Part shown: positions 29,357 through 63,472 of the stretch, piece after piece
Layout of the letters: every line of letters begins with the position of its first letter
Position numbering within the stretch: position 1 is the first letter of the stretch
Virus record (IMG/VR): IMGVR_UViG_3300036715_002236
Coordinates: 1 to 64,000 of that record
Source of the DNA: a virus
Direction: 5' to 3' (one strand)
DNA: 64,000 nucleotides
Position numbers and translations under genes: made by a program
Notes under the pieces: generated by a model
What the model saw: the letters and a program-made list of their open reading frames with translations, nothing else
Databases searched by the model: none
Told to the model about the DNA's origin: nothing

Positions 29357-30067
29357 TCAAGCCTTCAATTCAGGCCTTTTCTTTCTCCACTTCTGATAAA
29401 CGCCTTTCTTTTTTAAGACTCTACGAATGACATAGGCGCTTACTCCCAATCGCTTTGCCATTCTTTTTGGTCCACACTCTTGATACATTTTCACTATCGC
29501 TTCTTCCATTTCAACATTTACTTGCACAAAGATTTTTCCTGTTGCGGCTGACCTAAGTTTTTCTCTGTGCTCCTCCGAAACTATTCCACTACTTCTGTTT
29601 TTTGATAATCCAGTATCCCAGGTTATTTTTCTGCCCGACATCTTGTTGCGCATCATCTCTGTGTGCTCAGTCGTCCACATATTTTTTGTCGTTGTTGTTC
29701 TCCACCTTCTAAACTCAGGAGACGCAAATGCCTTTTTCAGTGACACCGATCTATTTTCTAACATTCTTATTCGGTCTTCTGATGGCATGTTAGTTGTGGT
29801 ATCTCCGCCGGTTCCCCCGAGAGTTATGTTGTATCCAACATTCTTATCAGTCGTATTCAGCTCCCTTACCCAGTAAACTTCTCTTTCTGCTAAATGAGTG
29901 AGGGAGCTACATTTTTCTATTGTAATCTTCTCAAAGTTTTCTTTTCCATACTTCTTTACGGCTCTCCGCAAAAGAGTTCCAGATCCAATATAGCTAGGCC
30001 TATTACGGGCATCTTTACCAACATAAATCTTTCCATTTATTTTATTTCTCGTCTTGTATATTATCAT
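29357..30067 (-). CDS. GIY-YIG endonuclease with C-terminal HTH
   Basis: 236 aa. MIIYKTRNKINGKIYVGKDA core and LAEREVYWVRE Glu region. Unlike the plus-strand copies it has one NUMOD3-like unit (SEEHREKLRSAATGK) and ends with a helix-turn-helix (PKRMAKRLGVSAYVIRRVLK). A separate lineage. No standard compact promoter; TTGTATATTTATCC lies before the start. Confidence 0.85.
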   Translation of the reverse strand: MIIYKTRNKINGKIYVGKDARNRPSYIGSGTLLRRAVKKYGKENFEKITIEKCSSLTHLAEREVYWVRELNTTDKNVGYNITLGGTGGDTTTNMPSEDRIRMLENRSVSLKKAFASPEFRRWRTTTTKNMWTTEHTEMMRNKMSGRKITWDTGLSKNRSSGIVSEEHREKLRSAATGKIFVQVNVEMEEAIVKMYQECGPKRMAKRLGVSAYVIRRVLKKKGVYQKWRKKRPELKA

Positions 30068-30109: not shown

Positions 30110-31210
30110 TTACTTTTTTAGCACTTGGTATATCAACTTTTTATAATCTTCTTCATTCAACTGCTTTCCATCAAGTAGCTTGAACGCCATGCCAGACCGA
30201 TTAGTTTGTCCATAAGCCTGCATGATTGCGGCCGCCGCGTCTCTCCGAGAGACTCGCTTGAGTGGTGATAGTGGGGCAACAAAATTTTTCATATACGAAA
30301 CAATCTCTTCAACCTCTTTATGAGCATCGCAGATATTGGAAATCATACCACGCGCCTCATTAGCAATTTCATAATCAAAAGCTTCTTCACAATAAGCGAA
30401 GAACTCTTGATAGGCCGGCTTACCAGCGATTAGCCAAACATCCAAAACTTTCTCTATATTGGATAGCTCCGACTTCATTCTATGTTTGCACAAATACTCA
30501 GCACCCTTGACCTTACGGATGGACTGACCGTTGTTGTAGTAAACGCACAGGCCCTCCATACCCTTAAACTGCTCTACAGCATTCTTCATTTCTTCAACAG
30601 AAGAATATGAGAACGAACGAGGGCGAGGAACACCCCATGCCTTGGCCGTAGTGTCCAGCGAAGTCTGTGTGACGTAGCGGTAGTCTGCGTGGTATATAGC
30701 CCCGGTAAGATATAGGATGGGTTCAGTTCCGTAGTCTATGACAATTTTGTTTAAAGGGGAGCACCACTCATACACCACAGTCATCTCTTCCGACTCTACC
30801 CAACTGTTATTAAACGCTTTTGGATATTTCTGTTTGAGAATCTCAATTTCCCAACCGTTCAACGGTTGGAGAGAAGCGTCCAATGTTCCGCGGGTGCGAA
30901 CGATGAGATTTCCTTTGTATTTTGATACGAGCAAAGTCGAACCATCAATCTTTTCCATCAGTTCTGCGTCTTGAAGAGAAGACGGAATTCCGTCGAGGGA
31001 AGGCTGCTCGTCCCAGTTGAAAAATTTCTTCCAAGACAGAGAAACAGGAAGACCGTCCTTAGTCCATACAGATGAACGAAATATAAGATTTTCAGGAGTA
31101 TATTTGGAGCCGATAGAAATTGGTTGAACAAGCACAAACTCTTCATTCCCAATGAAATGAGAATGTTTCATAAAGCTGTCTTTGTCGATTTTTTCTAAAG
31201 AAATTTTCAT
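30110..31210 (-). CDS. T4 Rnl1-like RNA ligase
   Basis: 366 aa. Nucleotidyltransferase motif I is MEKIDGSTLL with adenylated Lys87; MTVVYEWCSP is motif III-like, GMEGLCVYY motif IV and RKVKGAEYLCKHR motif V. The C-terminal third is helical as in Rnl1. Such enzymes seal 5'-phosphate/3'-OH RNA ends, classically repairing tRNA cut by host anticodon nucleases. Compact promoter 31243-31258. A tRNA-Lys gene is 1.2 kb upstream; no polynucleotide kinase is in the window. Confidence 0.85.
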   Translation of the reverse strand: MKISLEKIDKDSFMKHSHFIGNEEFVLVQPISIGSKYTPENLIFRSSVWTKDGLPVSLSWKKFFNWDEQPSLDGIPSSLQDAELMEKIDGSTLLVSKYKGNLIVRTRGTLDASLQPLNGWEIEILKQKYPKAFNNSWVESEEMTVVYEWCSPLNKIVIDYGTEPILYLTGAIYHADYRYVTQTSLDTTAKAWGVPRPRSFSYSSVEEMKNAVEQFKGMEGLCVYYNNGQSIRKVKGAEYLCKHRMKSELSNIEKVLDVWLIAGKPAYQEFFAYCEEAFDYEIANEARGMISNICDAHKEVEEIVSYMKNFVAPLSPLKRVSRRDAAAAIMQAYGQTNRSGMAFKLLDGKQLNEEDYKKLIYQVLKK

Positions 31211-32364: not shown

Positions 32365-32441
32365 TGGTGGTGCCACCCGGACTTGAACCGGGAACCAATT
32401 GCTTAAAAGGCAACTGCTCTAACCAATTGAGCTATGGCACC
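32365..32441 (-). tRNA. tRNA-Lys (UUU)
   Basis: Complete 77-nt cloverleaf: acceptor GGTGCCA/TGGCACC, D-stem GCTC/GAGC, anticodon stem GTTGC/GCAAT around CTTTTAA (anticodon TTT), T-arm CCCGG-TTCAAGT-CCGGG, encoded CCA. The only intact tRNA in the window. PrrC-type anticodon nucleases attack this isoacceptor, which fits the nearby RNA ligase. Confidence 0.95.
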
Positions 32442-33233: not shown

Positions 33234-33611
33234 TCAAGACTTATCGGAAATTTTGAATGAGGTGAGAACTTCGATTAGTTCGGCTGAACAGATAGCTGTT
33301 TCAGCGAAGTTCAATCCGTTCGAAAAAACAATCGCAGAAAACTTTTCGCGTAGCTCAGCCTTTTCATCGTAGGATAGCTCGATATTCTTCATCACATTCT
33401 TTCGTGAAATCACATCTAAAATTTCTTTACAGTAAAATCCTGAATAGTTACTTTCCAAAGAGATTACTTTGGCTTTCCACGCCGACCCCTTAGATCTTAG
33501 AGGTGGAAGACTAACGGTGTCGCCTACACTCACGTTACGACCTCCATCCAAATAGGTGACGTTCATGCCCATTGGGCTCTCAACAACAACAACGCCGGTG
33601 TAATTTCTCAT
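33234..33611 (-). CDS. Hypothetical protein (125 aa)
   Basis: N-terminal barrel-like half (VSVGDTVSLPPL), C-terminal helical half. Compact promoter 33631-33646. Confidence 0.75.
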   Translation of the reverse strand: MRNYTGVVVVESPMGMNVTYLDGGRNVSVGDTVSLPPLRSKGSAWKAKVISLESNYSGFYCKEILDVISRKNVMKNIELSYDEKAELREKFSAIVFSNGLNFAETAICSAELIEVLTSFKISDKS

Positions 33612-33652
33612 GCCACCAGACTAGCTAAACTTTTATAAAATGTCAACGAAAA

Positions 33653-33687
33653 AAGAGAGCCCGATCAAGGAACTCTCTTTTTTGACC
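33653..33687. terminator. Bidirectional terminator hairpin
   Basis: AAAAAAGAGAG...CTCTCTTTTTT between promoter 33631 and the large RNA locus; second stop signal for that RNA. Confidence 0.7.
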
Positions 33688-33757: not shown

Positions 33758-34705
33758 CAGAAAAGACGAACCTTGCGGGCTCGTCTTTAGTTATTAGATT
33801 AGGTTGGCTTGAGAATACAGCGTTCCTCGATACATCTTTCATGGGATTATAGATTCCCCATTTTTCCATCATCCTTTCGGACGGTAATGTTCATGGTTGC
33901 CTTTTTCGTATCAGGCGATAGACTCTCTCTTAAACTACTCGACACCTTTTTCAACTGTCTATGGGAGCTACCCACAAACGAGCCTACTCGTTGTATCAAA
34001 CCTAAATGACCTTGCGAGCCACCTAAGCTCTCCATTCCTTTCGGTGGAGACTTTAACCACTTACGTTTAAGAGGATTACAGTGCTTGTGCTTTTAATTTC
34101 CATTAATAGTAGAATTGCCTTGCGGCTTCCAAAAACGATGTGCTGTAATGATGGCCGGTTTCCCTTTTGGAGAACCCGATACCACCCACCGCCATACCTT
34201 TCCCTTGCGAGGACTTGGGCCGTTCTAATCGAATGAGCAGCTGGTCGTAACCAACGTCACCGACTCTAACTGGATTAACCCACTTGGCTGCAAAACCTCG
34301 CAGTATAATCCTTACGCTTCAGCTTACTTCCTCGTCGGGTGTTGTGCTTTTCTCCAAGATGCCATCTTGATATTTTCCCTCAACCACTTGGTCGTCAGGA
34401 TTTCGACTAGAGAACTGCTCCGACTTCGGACCTACTCCTACCTATTAGTAGAAGCGAGAGCCTACGCTTGTATAACTGACCGCGATGCGGCGACAGTGTT
34501 TGGAACACCGCCTTTCCCTACCTTTCGATAGACGTATCTTTACCAACCCTTGCGAGCTGGAAGGACATCATACTGCCCTTAAATTGTTAAACTGTAAAAG
34601 AACTAAATTGGAGCGAATCTACGATTTGATACGTAACCTCTCTACGGTTGTAGAGTGTGCTAACATACACCAGCCTTCGCGTAACTGACTGAACTTATGA
34701 CTATG
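33758..34705 (-). ncRNA. Large structured RNA, GNRA-rich (candidate GOLLD/ROOL-like or new class)
   Basis: About 950 bases with no gene, a compact promoter at 34713-34727 at one end and a terminator (33761-33788) at the other. On the minus strand there are many hairpins closed by GNRA loops: CTATC-GAAA-GGTAG (34518-34531), CCAGCTC-GCAA-GGGTTGG (near 34555), TCTCCA-CC-GAAA-GG-AA-TGGAGA (34029-34050), GCC-GCAA-GGC (34117-34126), and GAAA or GCAA loops near 33875, 34013 and 34207; TCCG-AAGT-CGGA lies at 34419-34430. GNRA loops often dock in tertiary contacts. Phage RNAs of similar size and ornament are GOLLD and ROOL, often near tRNA genes. Class not assignable by eye. Confidence 0.75.
33761..33788 (-). 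terminator. Probable terminator of the large RNA
   Basis: Minus strand AAGACGAGCC-CGCAA-GGTTCGTCTT followed by TT. Confidence 0.65.
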
Positions 34706-34712
34706 ACAGGTA

Positions 34713-34727
34713 GTTTATAAATGTCAA
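34713..34727 (-). promoter_or_regulatory. Compact promoter of the large RNA
   Basis: TTGACATTTATAAAC directed leftward into the GNRA-rich region; no gene starts downstream within 950 bases. Confidence 0.65.
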
Positions 34728-34729
34728 GC

Positions 34730-34972
34730 CTTTCGACTAACTAAATTGAGATTTTCCATTCTATCCCCAGCCAAATATTTGCAAGTGTCTTTTATCTACT
34801 TACTTATACTCCATTATCTATCTTCTGCGCGTCATCTTTTACAACTTCGCACTTGGTTTCAATAGCGGCCGCGACTTCGGAATCGCGTCTGGTTCATCTT
34901 AACGGGGAGCTTTTCAAAACTTGAACTGTCGAAAGAACACCATCACTCTACACGCTTATATATAACTGTCAA
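34730..34972 (-). other. Gene-free stretch behind a promoter variant
   Basis: TTGACAGTTATATATAAG at 34956-34972 points left. The 220 bases that follow hold no ORF above 12 codons from ATG. A coding-like frame (RRDSEVAAAIETKCEVVKDD) would need one base removed after an ATG near 34900, so it may be a broken 30-codon gene. Confidence 0.4.
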
Positions 34973-34982
34973 ACAAAAAGCG

Positions 34983-35204
34983 TTAAGCAATCCAAAATTT
35001 CCAAACTTTTTTCGGATACTGAGACGTAAGGTTCGCCATGAAGGTTTCAACTGCCCACTGTGGAAAGTTGCTGGCGAGGGTGAGTGCCACATTCGATCCG
35101 TCGTCAATCGCATCACCCGTTTTGCTATCAAGGATGGGCTCACGTTTCGTAAGTCGTTGACCCATAAGGGTTACTAGCTTGTTATTCTGTGATTTCGTGG
35201 TCAT
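34983..35204 (-). CDS. Hypothetical protein (73 aa)
   Basis: ATG 35204; overlaps the membrane gene upstream by 23 bases. Ends with a basic, aromatic QYPKKVWKFWIA. Not recognised. Confidence 0.6.
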   Translation of the reverse strand: MTTKSQNNKLVTLMGQRLTKREPILDSKTGDAIDDGSNVALTLASNFPQWAVETFMANLTSQYPKKVWKFWIA

Positions 35205-37737: not shown

Positions 37738-37881
37738 ATGGGAAGAAAGAAATTACATCGAACAAAAGAAGAGAAAAATGAACAACATCGAATCCGTTCC
37801 GCTAGATACTATGAGAGAAACAGAGCCAAAGTCTGTGAAAGAGTCATGCTGCGGTATCTACGGATTAAGAAACAAGCTTAA
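37738..37881 (+). CDS. MGRKK small ORF overlapping GIY-YIG gene (47 aa)
   Basis: MGRKKLHRTKEEKN...RYYERNR...MLRYLR, same plan as 18822 and 25951; preceded by ATACTTATAGTC. Confidence 0.5.
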   Translation: MGRKKLHRTKEEKNEQHRIRSARYYERNRAKVCERVMLRYLRIKKQA

Positions 37882-38716
37882 CGAAAAATGGTATGTTGGG
37901 CAGAGCTTGGATATGCACAAGCGTTGGTTGAATGACTACAAACGAATGAAGTGTTCTCGCCAACCAAAAATTTACAATGCTCTCAAAAAATATGGCTACG
38001 ATGGATTTGACAAGGTGATATTGGAGGAATGTCCAAACGATATTAATTTTTTGAATCGGAGAGAAATTTTTTGGATAAAATATTACAATTCTATGTTGAA
38101 CGGATATAATCTTACCGGAGGAGGTGGAGCAAAAGGAACATACTCACCTGAATCAATTGAAAAAATGAGAAATGCCCAACTGGGGAAGAATCATACGGAA
38201 GAAACAAAAGAAAAAATCAGAAAAATTACCACTGGAAAAAAACAATCTAACGAAACAATATCGAAGAGAAAGTATTCAAATAAGAATTTCAAACACACTG
38301 AGACATCGAAGCGAAAAATGTCCATCTTAGCTACCGGAAGAAAACATACAGAACAGACGAAGAAAAAATTATCTGAGATGCAAATGGGTCGGATTCGTTC
38401 TCCTCGTTCCGAAGAAACAAAGCGAAGAATCAGTGAAGCAAAATTGGGATGGAATCCTTCAACCGAAACACGAATGAATATGAGTAAGGGTCAAAAAGGA
38501 AGAATTTTTTCCGACGAACATCGACGGAAAATATCTCAGAGTGTAAAAGGAAAAATTATGCCAATTGAGGCGATAGAGAAAATTCGTCAATGGAATCTTG
38601 GAAGAAAATGTTCCGAAGAATCAAAAAAGAAAATGAGTGAGTCCCGAAAAAAATATTTGGAGAGAAAAAAAGGGATAGCGAATTCCACTTCGCCAGAGCC
38701 CCTGCTCTCAAAGTAA
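37778..38716 (+). CDS. GIY-YIG homing endonuclease with NUMOD3 repeats
   Basis: 312 aa, the longest copy. SCCGIYGLRNKLNEKWYVGQ, Glu region LNRREIFWIK, then six or more NUMOD3-like repeats (TEETKEKIRKITTGKK, SEETKRRISEAKLG, SDEHRRKISQSVKG). Last nine bases overlap the end of the helicase gene on the other strand. Confidence 0.85.
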   Translation: MNNIESVPLDTMRETEPKSVKESCCGIYGLRNKLNEKWYVGQSLDMHKRWLNDYKRMKCSRQPKIYNALKKYGYDGFDKVILEECPNDINFLNRREIFWIKYYNSMLNGYNLTGGGGAKGTYSPESIEKMRNAQLGKNHTEETKEKIRKITTGKKQSNETISKRKYSNKNFKHTETSKRKMSILATGRKHTEQTKKKLSEMQMGRIRSPRSEETKRRISEAKLGWNPSTETRMNMSKGQKGRIFSDEHRRKISQSVKGKIMPIEAIEKIRQWNLGRKCSEESKKKMSESRKKYLERKKGIANSTSPEPLLSK

Positions 38717-44253: not shown

Positions 44254-44895
44254 TTAAGTCCTTGATAACAAAGCTCTTCTGGTTTCAGCAGCAGCCCAAT
44301 CTTCGGGTGTTGGCCACTCCGGTTCGAGTCCAGCTTCAATTTCCCACGGTTCCATTTCATTGTCATCTGTTTTATGTATAGGTTTTTGCGACATCCACAA
44401 TTTCACCGTAGGAGTCAGTAATTTCCAACCCTTTCCAGATTTTGACTTTTCTAATATTGAGATAGTGTGATAACGTCGGATTTTTTTCTGGGAGGAAAGC
44501 TCGTAACATGTTCCTGTGAACAGTTCTCCCGATTTGTGTATAAACGTGTAAACTCCCAATGGATAATCTTTTTCGTTTTTTGGACAAGGGCAAGAAGCGT
44601 CGAATTTGAGATTGTAAACTTTTGATTTTTCAAATTTTGCAACATCCAGATATTTTTGTTCCACAACCAGCAACTCTACTTCTGTAAGATGTGGAAGTTC
44701 CTCAACAACGATAAATTTGAAGCCTGCTTCACCGTGTAAGTTCCACGCATTCTGTAACTTAGCGTTTCTGTGCTTATTGTTGCGGAGGGTATATCTGTGG
44801 CCATATCGCCAACGTTCTTCCATCTGTATAGAGCTACCAACATAATATTTTTCACTTTCAATGTGGACAATTTTGTATATTCCTTTCATGATCAT
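44254..44895 (-). CDS. GIY-YIG endonuclease family protein
   Basis: MKGIYKIVHIESEKYYVGSS core (ATG 44889 or 44895) and VELLVVEQKYLD as Glu region. About 213 aa with no NUMOD3 repeats, so a different subfamily. Bounded by plus-strand promoter motifs at 44191 and 44959. Confidence 0.75.
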   Translation of the reverse strand: MIMKGIYKIVHIESEKYYVGSSIQMEERWRYGHRYTLRNNKHRNAKLQNAWNLHGEAGFKFIVVEELPHLTEVELLVVEQKYLDVAKFEKSKVYNLKFDASCPCPKNEKDYPLGVYTFIHKSGELFTGTCYELSSQKKIRRYHTISILEKSKSGKGWKLLTPTVKLWMSQKPIHKTDDNEMEPWEIEAGLEPEWPTPEDWAAAETRRALLSRT

Positions 44896-55453: not shown

Positions 55454-55867
55454 TTATGACGCTTTGTTCATTGGTAGCAAGTCGAAACTGATTAGTTCGT
55501 AGTTTCCTATCTTTTTGTTTTCATCAAGAACACCGAATCCTCTAGGACGCAGGCCCCAGAGAGGGACTGTTCCTTTATCATTTTCTATTATCTCTGCCAA
55601 AACTTCTCCCATAGGTGTTTTGAGTGTTTGTGCCTCTATTATTAGGTTATTACCGTCTAGTTTGGCACTGTTAACAATGTGACTGGCTTTACTTAAATCA
55701 ATCGTTTCAGTTTGATAATGATCGTCACTCCAGATACACCCAATAGAACGCTTTTCATCTATTTGCTTTTGATATTCGAGGAGAGCTTTCTCCACCACTT
55801 CACGCGGATAGATGCGACCATTCTTATTGGGTGTATCTGTGATTAGAGCTATGCCAGAGAATTTCAT
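55454..55867 (-). CDS. Prohead-protease-like protein (137 aa)
   Basis: TPNKNGRIYPREVVEKALLEY, LSKASHIVNSAKLDGNNLII, TLKTPMGEVLAEII and GLRPRGFG...ISFDLLPMNKAS follow the order of phage capsid maturation proteases (T4 gp21/S78 type): N-GRIYP, SH, TP-G, RG-G, FD--P. The His of SHIV is retained; the Ser of the usual S-RG is Pro-Arg-Gly here. Shorter than virion proteases and set among metabolism genes, so possibly a repurposed copy. Confidence 0.65.
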   Translation of the reverse strand: MKFSGIALITDTPNKNGRIYPREVVEKALLEYQKQIDEKRSIGCIWSDDHYQTETIDLSKASHIVNSAKLDGNNLIIEAQTLKTPMGEVLAEIIENDKGTVPLWGLRPRGFGVLDENKKIGNYELISFDLLPMNKAS

Positions 55868-56682
55868 TTCTTGATTCGTTTGTCGTCACGGTTTTCGTTA
55901 AGAAAAGTCTTTCTATACTGTTCCCAACCCTTAAAATTACCAGACTGGCCAGAGTGCCACTGAGCTTTTGCTACATGTTCAAACGGACTCCAATGACCAC
56001 TTGCTGCAAGCTGGTCGTGTAGGTCGTAATCCTTCTCTGGCTTGATTTCTCCGTCAAAAGTGAGGTAGGAGGTTCGGGCACAACGTGCTGTGGCAATTTT
56101 GAGGCGTTGTTCATGGGTGATACCATCCGGCATTTTATCACCAAATGGGATATGCCATTCTCCTGTAGGAACGACTGTTGGAGTGCTGTTATTATATTTT
56201 TCCAGCATCAAATAGGCTAGAGCCTGAAACTCAGGCTGAGCAGCTTCGTGAGCGCGAAGGGAGAAGAAGTTGCCATACTCTGAGGCAGTGAGGATGACGG
56301 TTGTATTCATCCAACTTTCTAAGAGTCTATTGCTCAGTTGTTTATGAAGACCCAACTTTTCGAGTTTTTCCACGGTTTCAACCGCTCTATCGCGAGCTTC
56401 AAACCATATTCTTTTTGCTTCATTTAATTCTTCTCCAACCAATTCAATTTTTGCTGACATGCCTGATTGATTTTTTCCCCAAAAAACTGGAACCGCCGGA
56501 TTATTTTTTACATCGTCAAGCATTTTCTTCATTGGAATAGCTCGAGAAGAAGAAGCGTTTCTTGAAAACATTCGGTGTGTATTAACTTCCGCTAAAATAA
56601 ATCGAGGAAATGTCAATAACCACGTAGTTAATCTGTTTCCACTTGTGTTTACCGAATCTAAAATAATATCAGCTTTTATCAT
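55864..56682 (-). CDS. thyX: FAD-dependent thymidylate synthase ThyX
   Basis: 272 aa. Signature HRMFSRNASSSRAIP at residues 36-50 (RHR-S-N--S-R family motif). Makes dTMP from dUMP with methylene-tetrahydrofolate and NADPH, serving phage DNA synthesis. C-terminal SPFEHVAKAQW, GNFKGWEQYRK blocks agree with the larger phage ThyX form. Own sigma-70-like promoter 56689-56718, ATGA overlap with the next gene. Confidence 0.95.
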   Translation of the reverse strand: MIKADIILDSVNTSGNRLTTWLLTFPRFILAEVNTHRMFSRNASSSRAIPMKKMLDDVKNNPAVPVFWGKNQSGMSAKIELVGEELNEAKRIWFEARDRAVETVEKLEKLGLHKQLSNRLLESWMNTTVILTASEYGNFFSLRAHEAAQPEFQALAYLMLEKYNNSTPTVVPTGEWHIPFGDKMPDGITHEQRLKIATARCARTSYLTFDGEIKPEKDYDLHDQLAASGHWSPFEHVAKAQWHSGQSGNFKGWEQYRKTFLNENRDDKRIKK

Positions 56683-57367: not shown

Positions 57368-57562
57368 TCACTCGTATTTTATTGTCCATTCACTGTCATT
57401 GTAGATATGGTCGAAAAGGGAATCGTCTTCCGACGTTCCTTCTTTGACCTTGAGTTTTTTACAGAGAGCCGTGTAAAGTTTAACTTCTTTATCTTGGTTA
57501 GCTTTCACTAACTTAATAAAGTTGGTCACAGTTTTCTTGTGCTTTTTATCGAGTATTATCAT
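57368..57562 (-). CDS. Small phage protein (64 aa)
   Basis: Lys-rich helix, acidic end SLFDHIYNDSEW. Preceded by sigma-70-like promoter; ATGA overlap with the QueC-like gene. Confidence 0.75.
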   Translation of the reverse strand: MIILDKKHKKTVTNFIKLVKANQDKEVKLYTALCKKLKVKEGTSEDDSLFDHIYNDSEWTIKYE

Positions 57563-58251
57563 TTTTTGAGTTTACGCCTCTTAGGTTTTAAAGTCAACGT
57601 TTTTTCCTTGATAAGAGCTTCTTCTTTTTTCGTAGAAGCTATGAGTTCTTTTAACTGTATTTGTAGTTCTTGCATCTCTGTGCACTTCTTATCTGTTCCA
57701 AGTCTCCAATCTTCTCCAGCTTCGCTTGTGGAAATCAAGTCAAACACGTTCTCGCGCTTAACATAATACCTCAATAGGTCTTTTTTCATTTCCCATTCAA
57801 ACGGAAAGTAAATGTTTGTCGTCCTTCCTTTAAAAGCGTCAAAGTTACTGGCCAGACCATAAATCCATTGGCGGTAGTGCCAAACATCATCGTGCTTGAC
57901 CCAGCCGAAGGCGACTTCATCAGTAGGTGAAGTCATTGTTGCTATATACATCCAAATAGGAGGTTGGGTTAGTCCAAATTCTCCGTTTTTGAATAGTTCT
58001 GGCCAAGCAAATTCTCTCGCTCTGTGGATTTTGTCTTTAAACTCCTTGTGCAAAACATGGAATATTCTAAGTCTGGCCGCTTTCTCCGCGGTAGATTGGT
58101 CTTCGTTGTTCGACAGTGAGACGCTTACCGGGTAAACTTCTTTACCCTCTTCGAGATATTTGAGAATGACAGCGGTAGAATCAAATCCACCAGACCAAAC
58201 TACGGTCATGGCTTTTTCGTCAACCTTCGGTAGTGGAAGTTTTTCGTTCAT
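57559..58251 (-). CDS. QueC-like PP-loop protein (230 aa)
   Basis: MTVVWSGGFDSTAVILKYLEEG is the PP-loop (SGGFDS at residues 20-25), and PIWMYIATMTSPTDEVAFGW plus the YFPFEWEMKKDLLRYY region match QueC, which makes 7-cyano-7-deazaguanine for queuosine or deazaguanine DNA. QueC's C-terminal zinc cluster (C-x-C/C--C) is absent: only one Cys near GTDKKC. So the activity may differ. No queD/E/F in the window. GTP-derived precursor use is unknown. Confidence 0.75.
   Translation of the reverse strand: MNEKLPLPKVDEKAMTVVWSGGFDSTAVILKYLEEGKEVYPVSVSLSNNEDQSTAEKAARLRIFHVLHKEFKDKIHRAREFAWPELFKNGEFGLTQPPIWMYIATMTSPTDEVAFGWVKHDDVWHYRQWIYGLASNFDAFKGRTTNIYFPFEWEMKKDLLRYYVKRENVFDLISTSEAGEDWRLGTDKKCTEMQELQIQLKELIASTKKEEALIKEKTLTLKPKRRKLKK
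57569..57597 (-). promoter_or_regulatory. Sigma-70-like promoter
   Basis: TTGACT, 17 bases, TAAACT, inside the end of the QueC-like gene, ahead of ATG 57562. Confidence 0.5.
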
Positions 58252-61884: not shown

Positions 61885-62375
61885 AGTGTCTTTGGGCAAC
61901 CAATGTTTTCAAAGTAAACGCGATTCGAAGCTTCCTTTAGCTCCTCCTCTTTTTTTAATTTATCAAGTCGCGGACCTTCAAGATATTTGTCAAACGTTTC
62001 TCCCAATAGAATCAGCTCAGCACGTGTGACAGTAGAATCCTTTGGGGAAATTTCGGCCACGTTTACCGTTCTGCGTGGAGTAAAACTTCCGCGCCTTACT
62101 CCGCCATAATAAAATGAATCTCCAATCCAAACGGACAGACCCGATGTGTGGGTGTAAGTAGAGCTGTGAGTGTCCGGTTGGCCTGGAATTTGAACCCAAG
62201 CCGAATAAACCCAATTTTCTGGAGTTTGTATCATCGATTTGACGATGCCCTTGATAAAACAAGAAGGTTCTGGGTCAACGGGCTCTGCAGGAGGGTCTGG
62301 CCAAGGTTCTGGTGGAGAAACTGGCGCAGGAATTCTCTGAGGAGACTTAGAGCTAAATAATTTGAATATGTTCAT
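61881..62375 (-). CDS. Hypothetical protein with Pro-rich N-terminus (164 aa)
   Basis: Residues 10-38 are Pro/Glu-rich (PAPVSPPEPWPDPPAEP), a beta-rich centre (SVWIGDSFYYGGVRRG), helical end. ATGA overlap with the coaD-coaE gene. Confidence 0.7.
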   Translation of the reverse strand: MNIFKLFSSKSPQRIPAPVSPPEPWPDPPAEPVDPEPSCFIKGIVKSMIQTPENWVYSAWVQIPGQPDTHSSTYTHTSGLSVWIGDSFYYGGVRRGSFTPRRTVNVAEISPKDSTVTRAELILLGETFDKYLEGPRLDKLKKEEELKEASNRVYFENIGCPKTL

Positions 62376-63472
62376 GTGAGTGATTTCCCGAGACGATGGA
62401 GAAGTTGAAAAACTTCATAGGTCATAGCCATTTCCGAAACTTGTGTCCAGATGACGCCGTGGCCATCCTTTAAGATTTTGTCGCCTATGACAACTTTTTT
62501 ATCGTGATAGGTATATTGAGACTGCAATCGATTGTTTACCTGTGTATCACTGTATCCGCGCTTCCTAAGTCTCTTAAGATACTTTTTAGATTCGGGTTCA
62601 CGAACCAAGATAACGTTGTTGTTACAGAGAAATAACCAATCGAGTTCCGCTAACAAGGCGCCTTCCAAAAGGACAATACCTTTCTTACCTCTCAGTTCTT
62701 CACGTAGAAGAGTGAGAATTGGTTCACGATAAATGGAGTTCAAAACGTTGAGTTTGTCTTTGTTCCCAAATACAATCTCACCAAGAGCTTTTCGATCTGA
62801 GGTGCCGAATTCTCGAAGGATTTCTCCACGAACCTCCTCAGCGAGAGGAGTTGTCTCCGTTAAGAGACGGTGAGCGAGCAAATCCATGTTGACATGATGT
62901 ATCGTGCAACCAAATTCATGTTGCATTTCATCAACCAGATACTTACAGAAGGTAGATTTTCCAGCTCCAATAATTCCAGTCACTCCAACGATGGCCTGAC
63001 CGAGCTTAGCCTCAACTGCTTCCTTGATATTCAAAGGAAGATAGTCGTGAACCAAGCCCTGAAATTTGGCCAGCGCCTTGGAGGCAGATGAGCTTACGTG
63101 AGATAGTTTTGTGTCAGAGAAAAGAAGAATAGTCTCCAAATTCCTCTGTTGGGTCAGCGTGATTTCGTTGATGAGCTTCTCATAATCGAAGTCTTGAGCC
63201 GTCCGCGCTCCCTTGATAAGATGGGTGTAACCGTTGATACGAGCGTAGTCTGCGGTTAGATTGTTAATCTCCACAACCGATACGTTGTGTTTCTTGATGC
63301 TTGGAATGGCTTTGATAAGAGCAATACGCTCCTCCACGGAAAACATGTATTTCTTGCTTGGGTTATTGCCAATACCAATCGTTACAGTAGGAAACATCGC
63401 ACAGGCACGGAGGACAATGTTCAAGTGTCCAAGTGTAAATGGGTCGAAACTACCAACATATAAGGCTTTCAT
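62372..63472 (-). CDS. Fused CoaD-CoaE: phosphopantetheine adenylyltransferase + dephospho-CoA kinase
   Basis: 366 aa. Residues 1-158 are bacterial-type CoaD: GSFDPFTLGHLNI (T13-L-G-H16), IKGARTAQDFDYE (87-97, matching RGLRA-SDF-YE), SHVSSSASKALAKF. From 161 it is CoaE: GVTGIIGAGKST (P-loop Lys172), VNMDLLAHRLL, DRKALGEIVFGN, LNSIYREPI. Together they turn 4'-phosphopantetheine into CoA in two ATP-using steps. Bacteria normally have separate genes; animals use a fusion (COASY) with another CoaD type. Both halves keep their motifs. ATGA overlaps on both sides. Confidence 0.9.
   Translation of the reverse strand: MKALYVGSFDPFTLGHLNIVLRACAMFPTVTIGIGNNPSKKYMFSVEERIALIKAIPSIKKHNVSVVEINNLTADYARINGYTHLIKGARTAQDFDYEKLINEITLTQQRNLETILLFSDTKLSHVSSSASKALAKFQGLVHDYLPLNIKEAVEAKLGQAIVGVTGIIGAGKSTFCKYLVDEMQHEFGCTIHHVNMDLLAHRLLTETTPLAEEVRGEILREFGTSDRKALGEIVFGNKDKLNVLNSIYREPILTLLREELRGKKGIVLLEGALLAELDWLFLCNNNVILVREPESKKYLKRLRKRGYSDTQVNNRLQSQYTYHDKKVVIGDKILKDGHGVIWTQVSEMAMTYEVFQLLHRLGKSLT

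Follow-up and report, generated by a model that had tools for sequence, protein, structure and literature searches.

The 64,000-nt stretch of DNA analysed here (the window), which is part of a 68,437-base IMG/VR virus record, almost certainly encodes on its minus strand a diverged member of the GOLLD class of RNAs. The explanation that best accounts for the evidence, with a probability of roughly 85%, is that of a phage-encoded noncoding RNA of the GOLLD class, about 930 nt long, that has two domains and would form cages. Within this explanation, GOLLD membership through the 3′ domain, the promoter-terminator unit and the location in a phage close to a tRNA are computed results. GOLLD itself is a known class that is found widely in environmental phages and has a solved structure, and the RNA of the window is a new, distant member of it. 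GOLLD RNAs are two-domain molecules in which the 5′ region is less conserved; many exceed 800 nt, they are often located near tRNA genes, and few other natural RNAs are known to form cages without protein. The RNA described here has this layout: it is about 930 nt long, both of its halves are structured, and it lies in a virus record with a tRNA-Lys gene 1.3 kb away (Table 1).

Table 1. Features of the GOLLD locus and its surroundings (positions are those of the window)
Feature	Position	Strand	Basis or remark
Promoter of the GOLLD RNA	34700..34727	-	TTGACA, 16-nt spacer containing TTTATAAA, CATAGT
5′ domain of the GOLLD RNA, probably a strongly diverged form	34195..34693	-	fold z -3.6
Block like the conserved GOLLD 5′-domain block	34465..34530	-	covariance models, descriptor
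3′ domain of the GOLLD RNA	33806..34194	-	full match, RF02032 positions 1-416 of 416
Variable linker region of the 3′ domain	34070..34132	-	unpaired model positions
P21 hairpin, GUUUGUGGG-UAGCU-CCCAUAGAC	33957..33979	-	Rfam alignment; at the place of L21a
Most conserved GOLLD hairpin, GGGGAAUCUAUAAUCCC	33843..33859	-	common to the pattern-found GOLLD loci
3′ end of the RNA: hairpin plus T tract resembling an intrinsic terminator	33761..33788	-	sequence; 11-bp stem in the fold
Second, back-up terminator-like hairpin, ahead of the next gene's promoter	33649..33680	-	sequence
tRNA-Lys(UUU)	32365..32441	-	1.3 kb downstream of the RNA, same strand; ARAGORN

The assignment comes from the 3′ domain, which the Rfam GOLLD model RF02032 matches at 161.1 bits (E 2.5e-43, 34194-33806 on the minus strand), exceeding the curated gathering cut-off of 150 bits by only 11 bits; in 14 control genomes the model had no match (0/14). 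Canonical pairing is present at 84 of the 92 scored model pairs, a count that is biased upward because the alignment is fitted to the structure, but whose margin over controls with the pair partners slid by 1-3 columns (33-46% canonical) is large. Relative to the family consensus, 33 of the canonical pairs are unchanged, 8 carry one-sided and 43 two-sided changes. The preliminary description had proposed a GOLLD, a ROOL or a new class, and had pointed to the Rfam models and to compensatory changes as ways of deciding; the models single out GOLLD, end to end and over the cut-off with no match to ROOL, and the two-sided changes are of the compensatory kind. The linker of the 3′ domain contains no tRNA according to ARAGORN.

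Close homologues of the RNA were not found in either the phage records or IMG/VR. Specifically, BLAST against 50,697 phage records gave no match, and a further viral pattern search gave no relative closer to the window. A pattern made from the most conserved GOLLD hairpin retrieved 115 stretches in IMG/VR (52 groups at 90% identity, with 87 of the 115 in one loosely linked family), to which the window RNA can be aligned only over the last 100-140 nt of its 3′ half. In bacterial genomes the strict pattern found nothing, and a relaxed version found the mycobacterial GOLLD as well as unconfirmed matches. With RF02032 the window scores 161 bits, as against 296-319 in other phages; divergent members score 226.6 bits (L238, a GOLLD on a 372-kb phage contig), 197.3 bits (L245, a prophage-derived GOLLD of Mycobacterium sp. 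D16Q14) and 80.9 bits, below the cut-off (L239). The last of these, a GC-rich GOLLD-like RNA at positions 1501-1916 of IMGVR_UViG_3300050120_000335, matches the model from end to end while scoring under 150 bits, and therefore Rfam, judging from such a sequence, misses divergent GOLLD members. Two of the other contigs carry further RNAs, namely a pistol ribozyme near a tRNA in a phage contig (L252:3134-3200) and, in the viral contig L234 (977-1395 and 3654-4064), a tmRNA gene that shares its strand with a GOLLD RNA about 2.3 kb away.

The 5′ half is more difficult to place, and neither BLAST nor a profile HMM aligned it with the 115 pattern-found GOLLD stretches. Among the covariance models, R1 (built from 30 relatives) has its best score in the region at the block listed in Table 1, although a weak one (10.6 bits, E 0.24), R2 (more divergent members) gives the same block 11.1 bits (E 6.8), second in the 64 kb, and R3, a poor model of hand-picked divergent members with only 4 pairs, missed the window. 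Such weak or absent scores would be expected of a chimera in which the GOLLD 3′ ring domain is joined to an unrelated 5′ fold, giving a different cap and perhaps another subunit number, and the solved GOLLD env-38 lends itself to this idea, since its 5′ domain, which forms the cap, is structurally separate from the 3′ domain and is known to vary (PMC12286853). A chimera is nevertheless unlikely, and the block speaks against it. In the window it consists of a GNRA hairpin (CUAUC-GAAA-GGUAG), GGAAAGG, a stem, a small hairpin and UAUACAAG, and in the relatives, as compared by eye, of a GNRA hairpin, GGAUAAAG, a stem, a hairpin and GAGUAUACAAG. An ordered descriptor of the block, which was written from the relatives but after the window had been seen and is thus supporting, not decisive, has this site as its only hit in 128 kb of strand and hence in the 64 kb. 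Of 2000 shuffled 5′ domains 7 contain it, and it is found in 36 of 43 relatives as well as in L238, L239 and L245. In addition, the mycobacterial L245 and the jumbo-phage L238 provide intermediate 5′ forms. On balance, the 5′ domain is probably that of other GOLLD RNAs, strongly diverged.

A further possible departure concerns the contacts between the two halves of the cage. In env-38 the half-shells are joined by the self-kissing loops L21a (bridge B8) and L21b (bridge B9) and by an A-minor contact (PMC12286853). In the window, the P21 loop that corresponds in position to the self-kissing L21a contains AGCU, which is self-complementary, and the second hairpin, P21b (L21b), is deleted in the Rfam alignment of the window; an alternative pairing is possible, with a hairpin ACGAG-UAGG-CUCGU beside P21. 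A single P21 hairpin is also present in L238, apparently in L245 and probably in the GC-rich L239, with the loop reading AGCU in L245 and GGCC in L239. Lake-type relatives apparently have two P21 hairpins, and automatic folding gave at least two in 43 of 51. The second inter-shell loop thus seems to be missing from the window RNA, whose cage, if any, may differ. It is doubtful, though conceivable, that the cap has a fold unlike that of the solved GOLLD cap and that, with one self-kissing loop instead of two, the architecture or subunit number differs; if this were true, the GOLLD ring domain would be a base for exchangeable caps.

The apparent loss of P21b and the low family score could also be taken as signs of a decayed relic that is transcribed but has lost the ability to assemble. 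This is very improbable, as decay would not give 84 of 92 pairs kept in the face of 43 two-sided changes, and the promoter and terminator are intact.

The RNA occupies a gene-free minus-strand stretch between an ORF ending at 34983 and a gene starting at 33611, and the predicted unit runs from about 34693 to 33761, from promoter to terminator. The preliminary description had delimited it correctly: TTGACATTTATAAA begins at 34727 and the terminator hairpin, with an 11-bp stem and a T tract behind it, occupies 33788-33761, both on the minus strand. Its estimate of about 950 gene-free bases is borne out too, the ORFs inside the region being no larger than chance would give (62 and 50 aa on the minus strand, up to 67 aa on the plus strand). 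Relative to dinucleotide shuffles, the minus strand has a fold energy z of -5.5, compared with -1.1 for the plus strand, and each half on its own folds better than shuffles, the 3′ half with a z of -3.0. When GNRA-capped hairpins with at least three uninterrupted pairs are counted, the minus strand of the region has 7 and the plus strand 1, whereas dinucleotide shuffles have 2.1 on average and reach 7 in 3 of 300 cases. About nine hairpins with GAAA or GCAA loops had been reported earlier; the excess on the transcribed strand holds, with 7 in the region itself and 9 in the best overlapping 970-base window, which is the maximum of the 64 kb. Given these energies, the hairpin counts and the position of the richest window, the excess of structure is real and specific to the minus strand.

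The promoter belongs to a class that is repeated along the same strand. The minus strand of the window contains 46 matches to TTGAC-N(1-4)-TATAA and the plus strand two, with 0.3 expected, and the GOLLD promoter is one of these 46 near-identical minus-strand copies, which span 44146 to 1401 (e.g. 42109, 33646, 29081, 19887 and 15143). The class aligns as TTGACATTTATAAA-N8-TCACTNT followed by ATG: in 40 of the 46 the first ATG is 25-27 bases past the start of TATAA, 41 copies are followed by the start of an ORF of 40 aa or more, a Shine-Dalgarno-like word was found at none of the 46, and TTTATAAA, between the -35 and -10 elements, is unusually conserved. A promoter had been recognized here before, as a compact one; the promoter stands, but instead of a compact phage promoter with TATAA as its -10 element, TTGACATTTATAAA is better taken as part of a sigma-70-type promoter of normal spacing (TTGACA-16-CATAGT), with the ATG near +1 in the class. 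Because the start point set by the -35 and -10 elements and the 16-nt spacer falls on or beside the ATG, the genes of this class are apparently leaderless, each with its own promoter. Only two of the 46 copies lack the ATG, namely a poor copy at 1401 and the GOLLD promoter, where its absence agrees with a noncoding transcript that begins near 34693. Indeed, this regular class allows the start of the GOLLD RNA to be predicted: the -10 position and the equal distance to the ATG in the sister promoters put it at about 34693, not at 34727. Two copies (32093 and 31258, minus strand) differ from the rest of the class by a longer common leader, in which CTTTACTTCAA..ACATG precedes the start codon. 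A further gene-free stretch, of 255 nt (34728-34982, minus strand), lies upstream of the GOLLD promoter; it has a promoter-like site at 34972 (TTGACAGTTATATATAAG) and folds no better than shuffles (z 0.25).

With a gene on the same strand directly downstream (33611-33234), the region might instead be a structured untranslated leader or an operon spacer and not a stand-alone RNA. This is highly improbable, since a separate promoter of the class, at 33646, serves the gene, with the ATG at the usual distance, and two terminator-like hairpins lie ahead of it. A simple terminator scan listed neither hairpin, because in the first most of the T run is taken up by the stem itself, and in the second the loop is long. 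Finally, a ROOL RNA or a new class, which the size and the richness in GNRA loops would fit as they do several classes, can be dismissed, as no Rfam family other than RF02032, ROOL included, matches the region even at E up to 1.

The surrounding genes are those of a phage that is, as far as its proteins indicate, distant from described phages: its helicase has one match, at 24%, in the phage collection, and pattern searches of IMG/VR found no relatives of the protein encoded at 33234-33611 or of the RNA ligase. This ligase, resembling T4 RNA ligase 1 (30110-31210, minus strand), is located close to the tRNA-Lys and the GOLLD RNA, and the three could have a role in tRNA upkeep during infection. 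Genes of the GIY-YIG type or resembling homing endonucleases are found around the RNA (29357-30067 and 44254-44895 on the minus strand, 37778-38716 on the plus strand). Elsewhere, the gene at 62372-63472 (minus strand) encodes a cofactor-synthesis fusion of a cytidylyltransferase-like N-terminal domain with a dephospho-CoA kinase C-terminal domain, and ThyX (55864-56682) and a QueC-like protein (57559-58251) are encoded near it.

GOLLD env-38 has been solved by cryo-EM as a closed, hollow 14-mer cage without protein, in which the linker of the 3′ domain lies unresolved in the interior; GOLLD expression rises during lysis of phage-infected cells, and tRNA or ribosomes are candidates for the cage content (PMC12286853). 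By analogy, the RNA of the window would be transcribed during infection by the machinery that reads the dozens of one-gene minus-strand promoters, would fold into its 5′ and 3′ domains, and its copies would join by loop-loop and A-minor contacts to form a closed, hollow cage enclosing the linker. That it self-assembles in this way is likely. As to function, the preferred but tentative guess is that, late in infection or at lysis, the cage contains tRNA, ribosomes or other cargo or acts as a decoy for them; for the GOLLD of a Lactobacillus brevis prophage, a passage in PMC7567579 (citing Harris and Breaker 2018) describes the RNA as dispensable for phage production.

A distant member is informative about what a cage may require. 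The parts kept are (i) the 3′ ring domain, (ii) probably the block of GNRA hairpin and AAAG and (iii) a self-complementary P21 loop, and the parts that would be dispensable are most of the 5′ sequence, the tRNA in the linker and probably the second inter-shell loop; the two lists narrow down the requirements for cage formation.

Compared with known systems, ROOL, another large RNA of phages, likewise assembles into a hollow cage of RNA but differs in sequence and fold. The common lake or env-38 type of GOLLD (RF02032) shares with the window RNA a complete 3′ domain with its conserved pairs and motifs, a length of more than 800 nt, the location in a phage close to a tRNA and probably the 5′ block of GNRA hairpin and AAAG, whereas the 5′ domain of the window is unalignable with it by sequence, P21 is shorter in the Rfam alignment and the linker is without a tRNA. 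The mycobacterial L245 has the 5′ GNRA hairpin followed by GGAAAGGYGG and, apparently, a single P21 with an AGCU loop in common with the window RNA, but it lies within a tRNA island, carries a tRNA in its linker, has a much higher GC content and is overall unalignable. L238 shares the 3′ domain and, as far as the Rfam alignment of the window shows, a single-hairpin P21, and its 5′ block is intermediate between the lake type and the form in the window.
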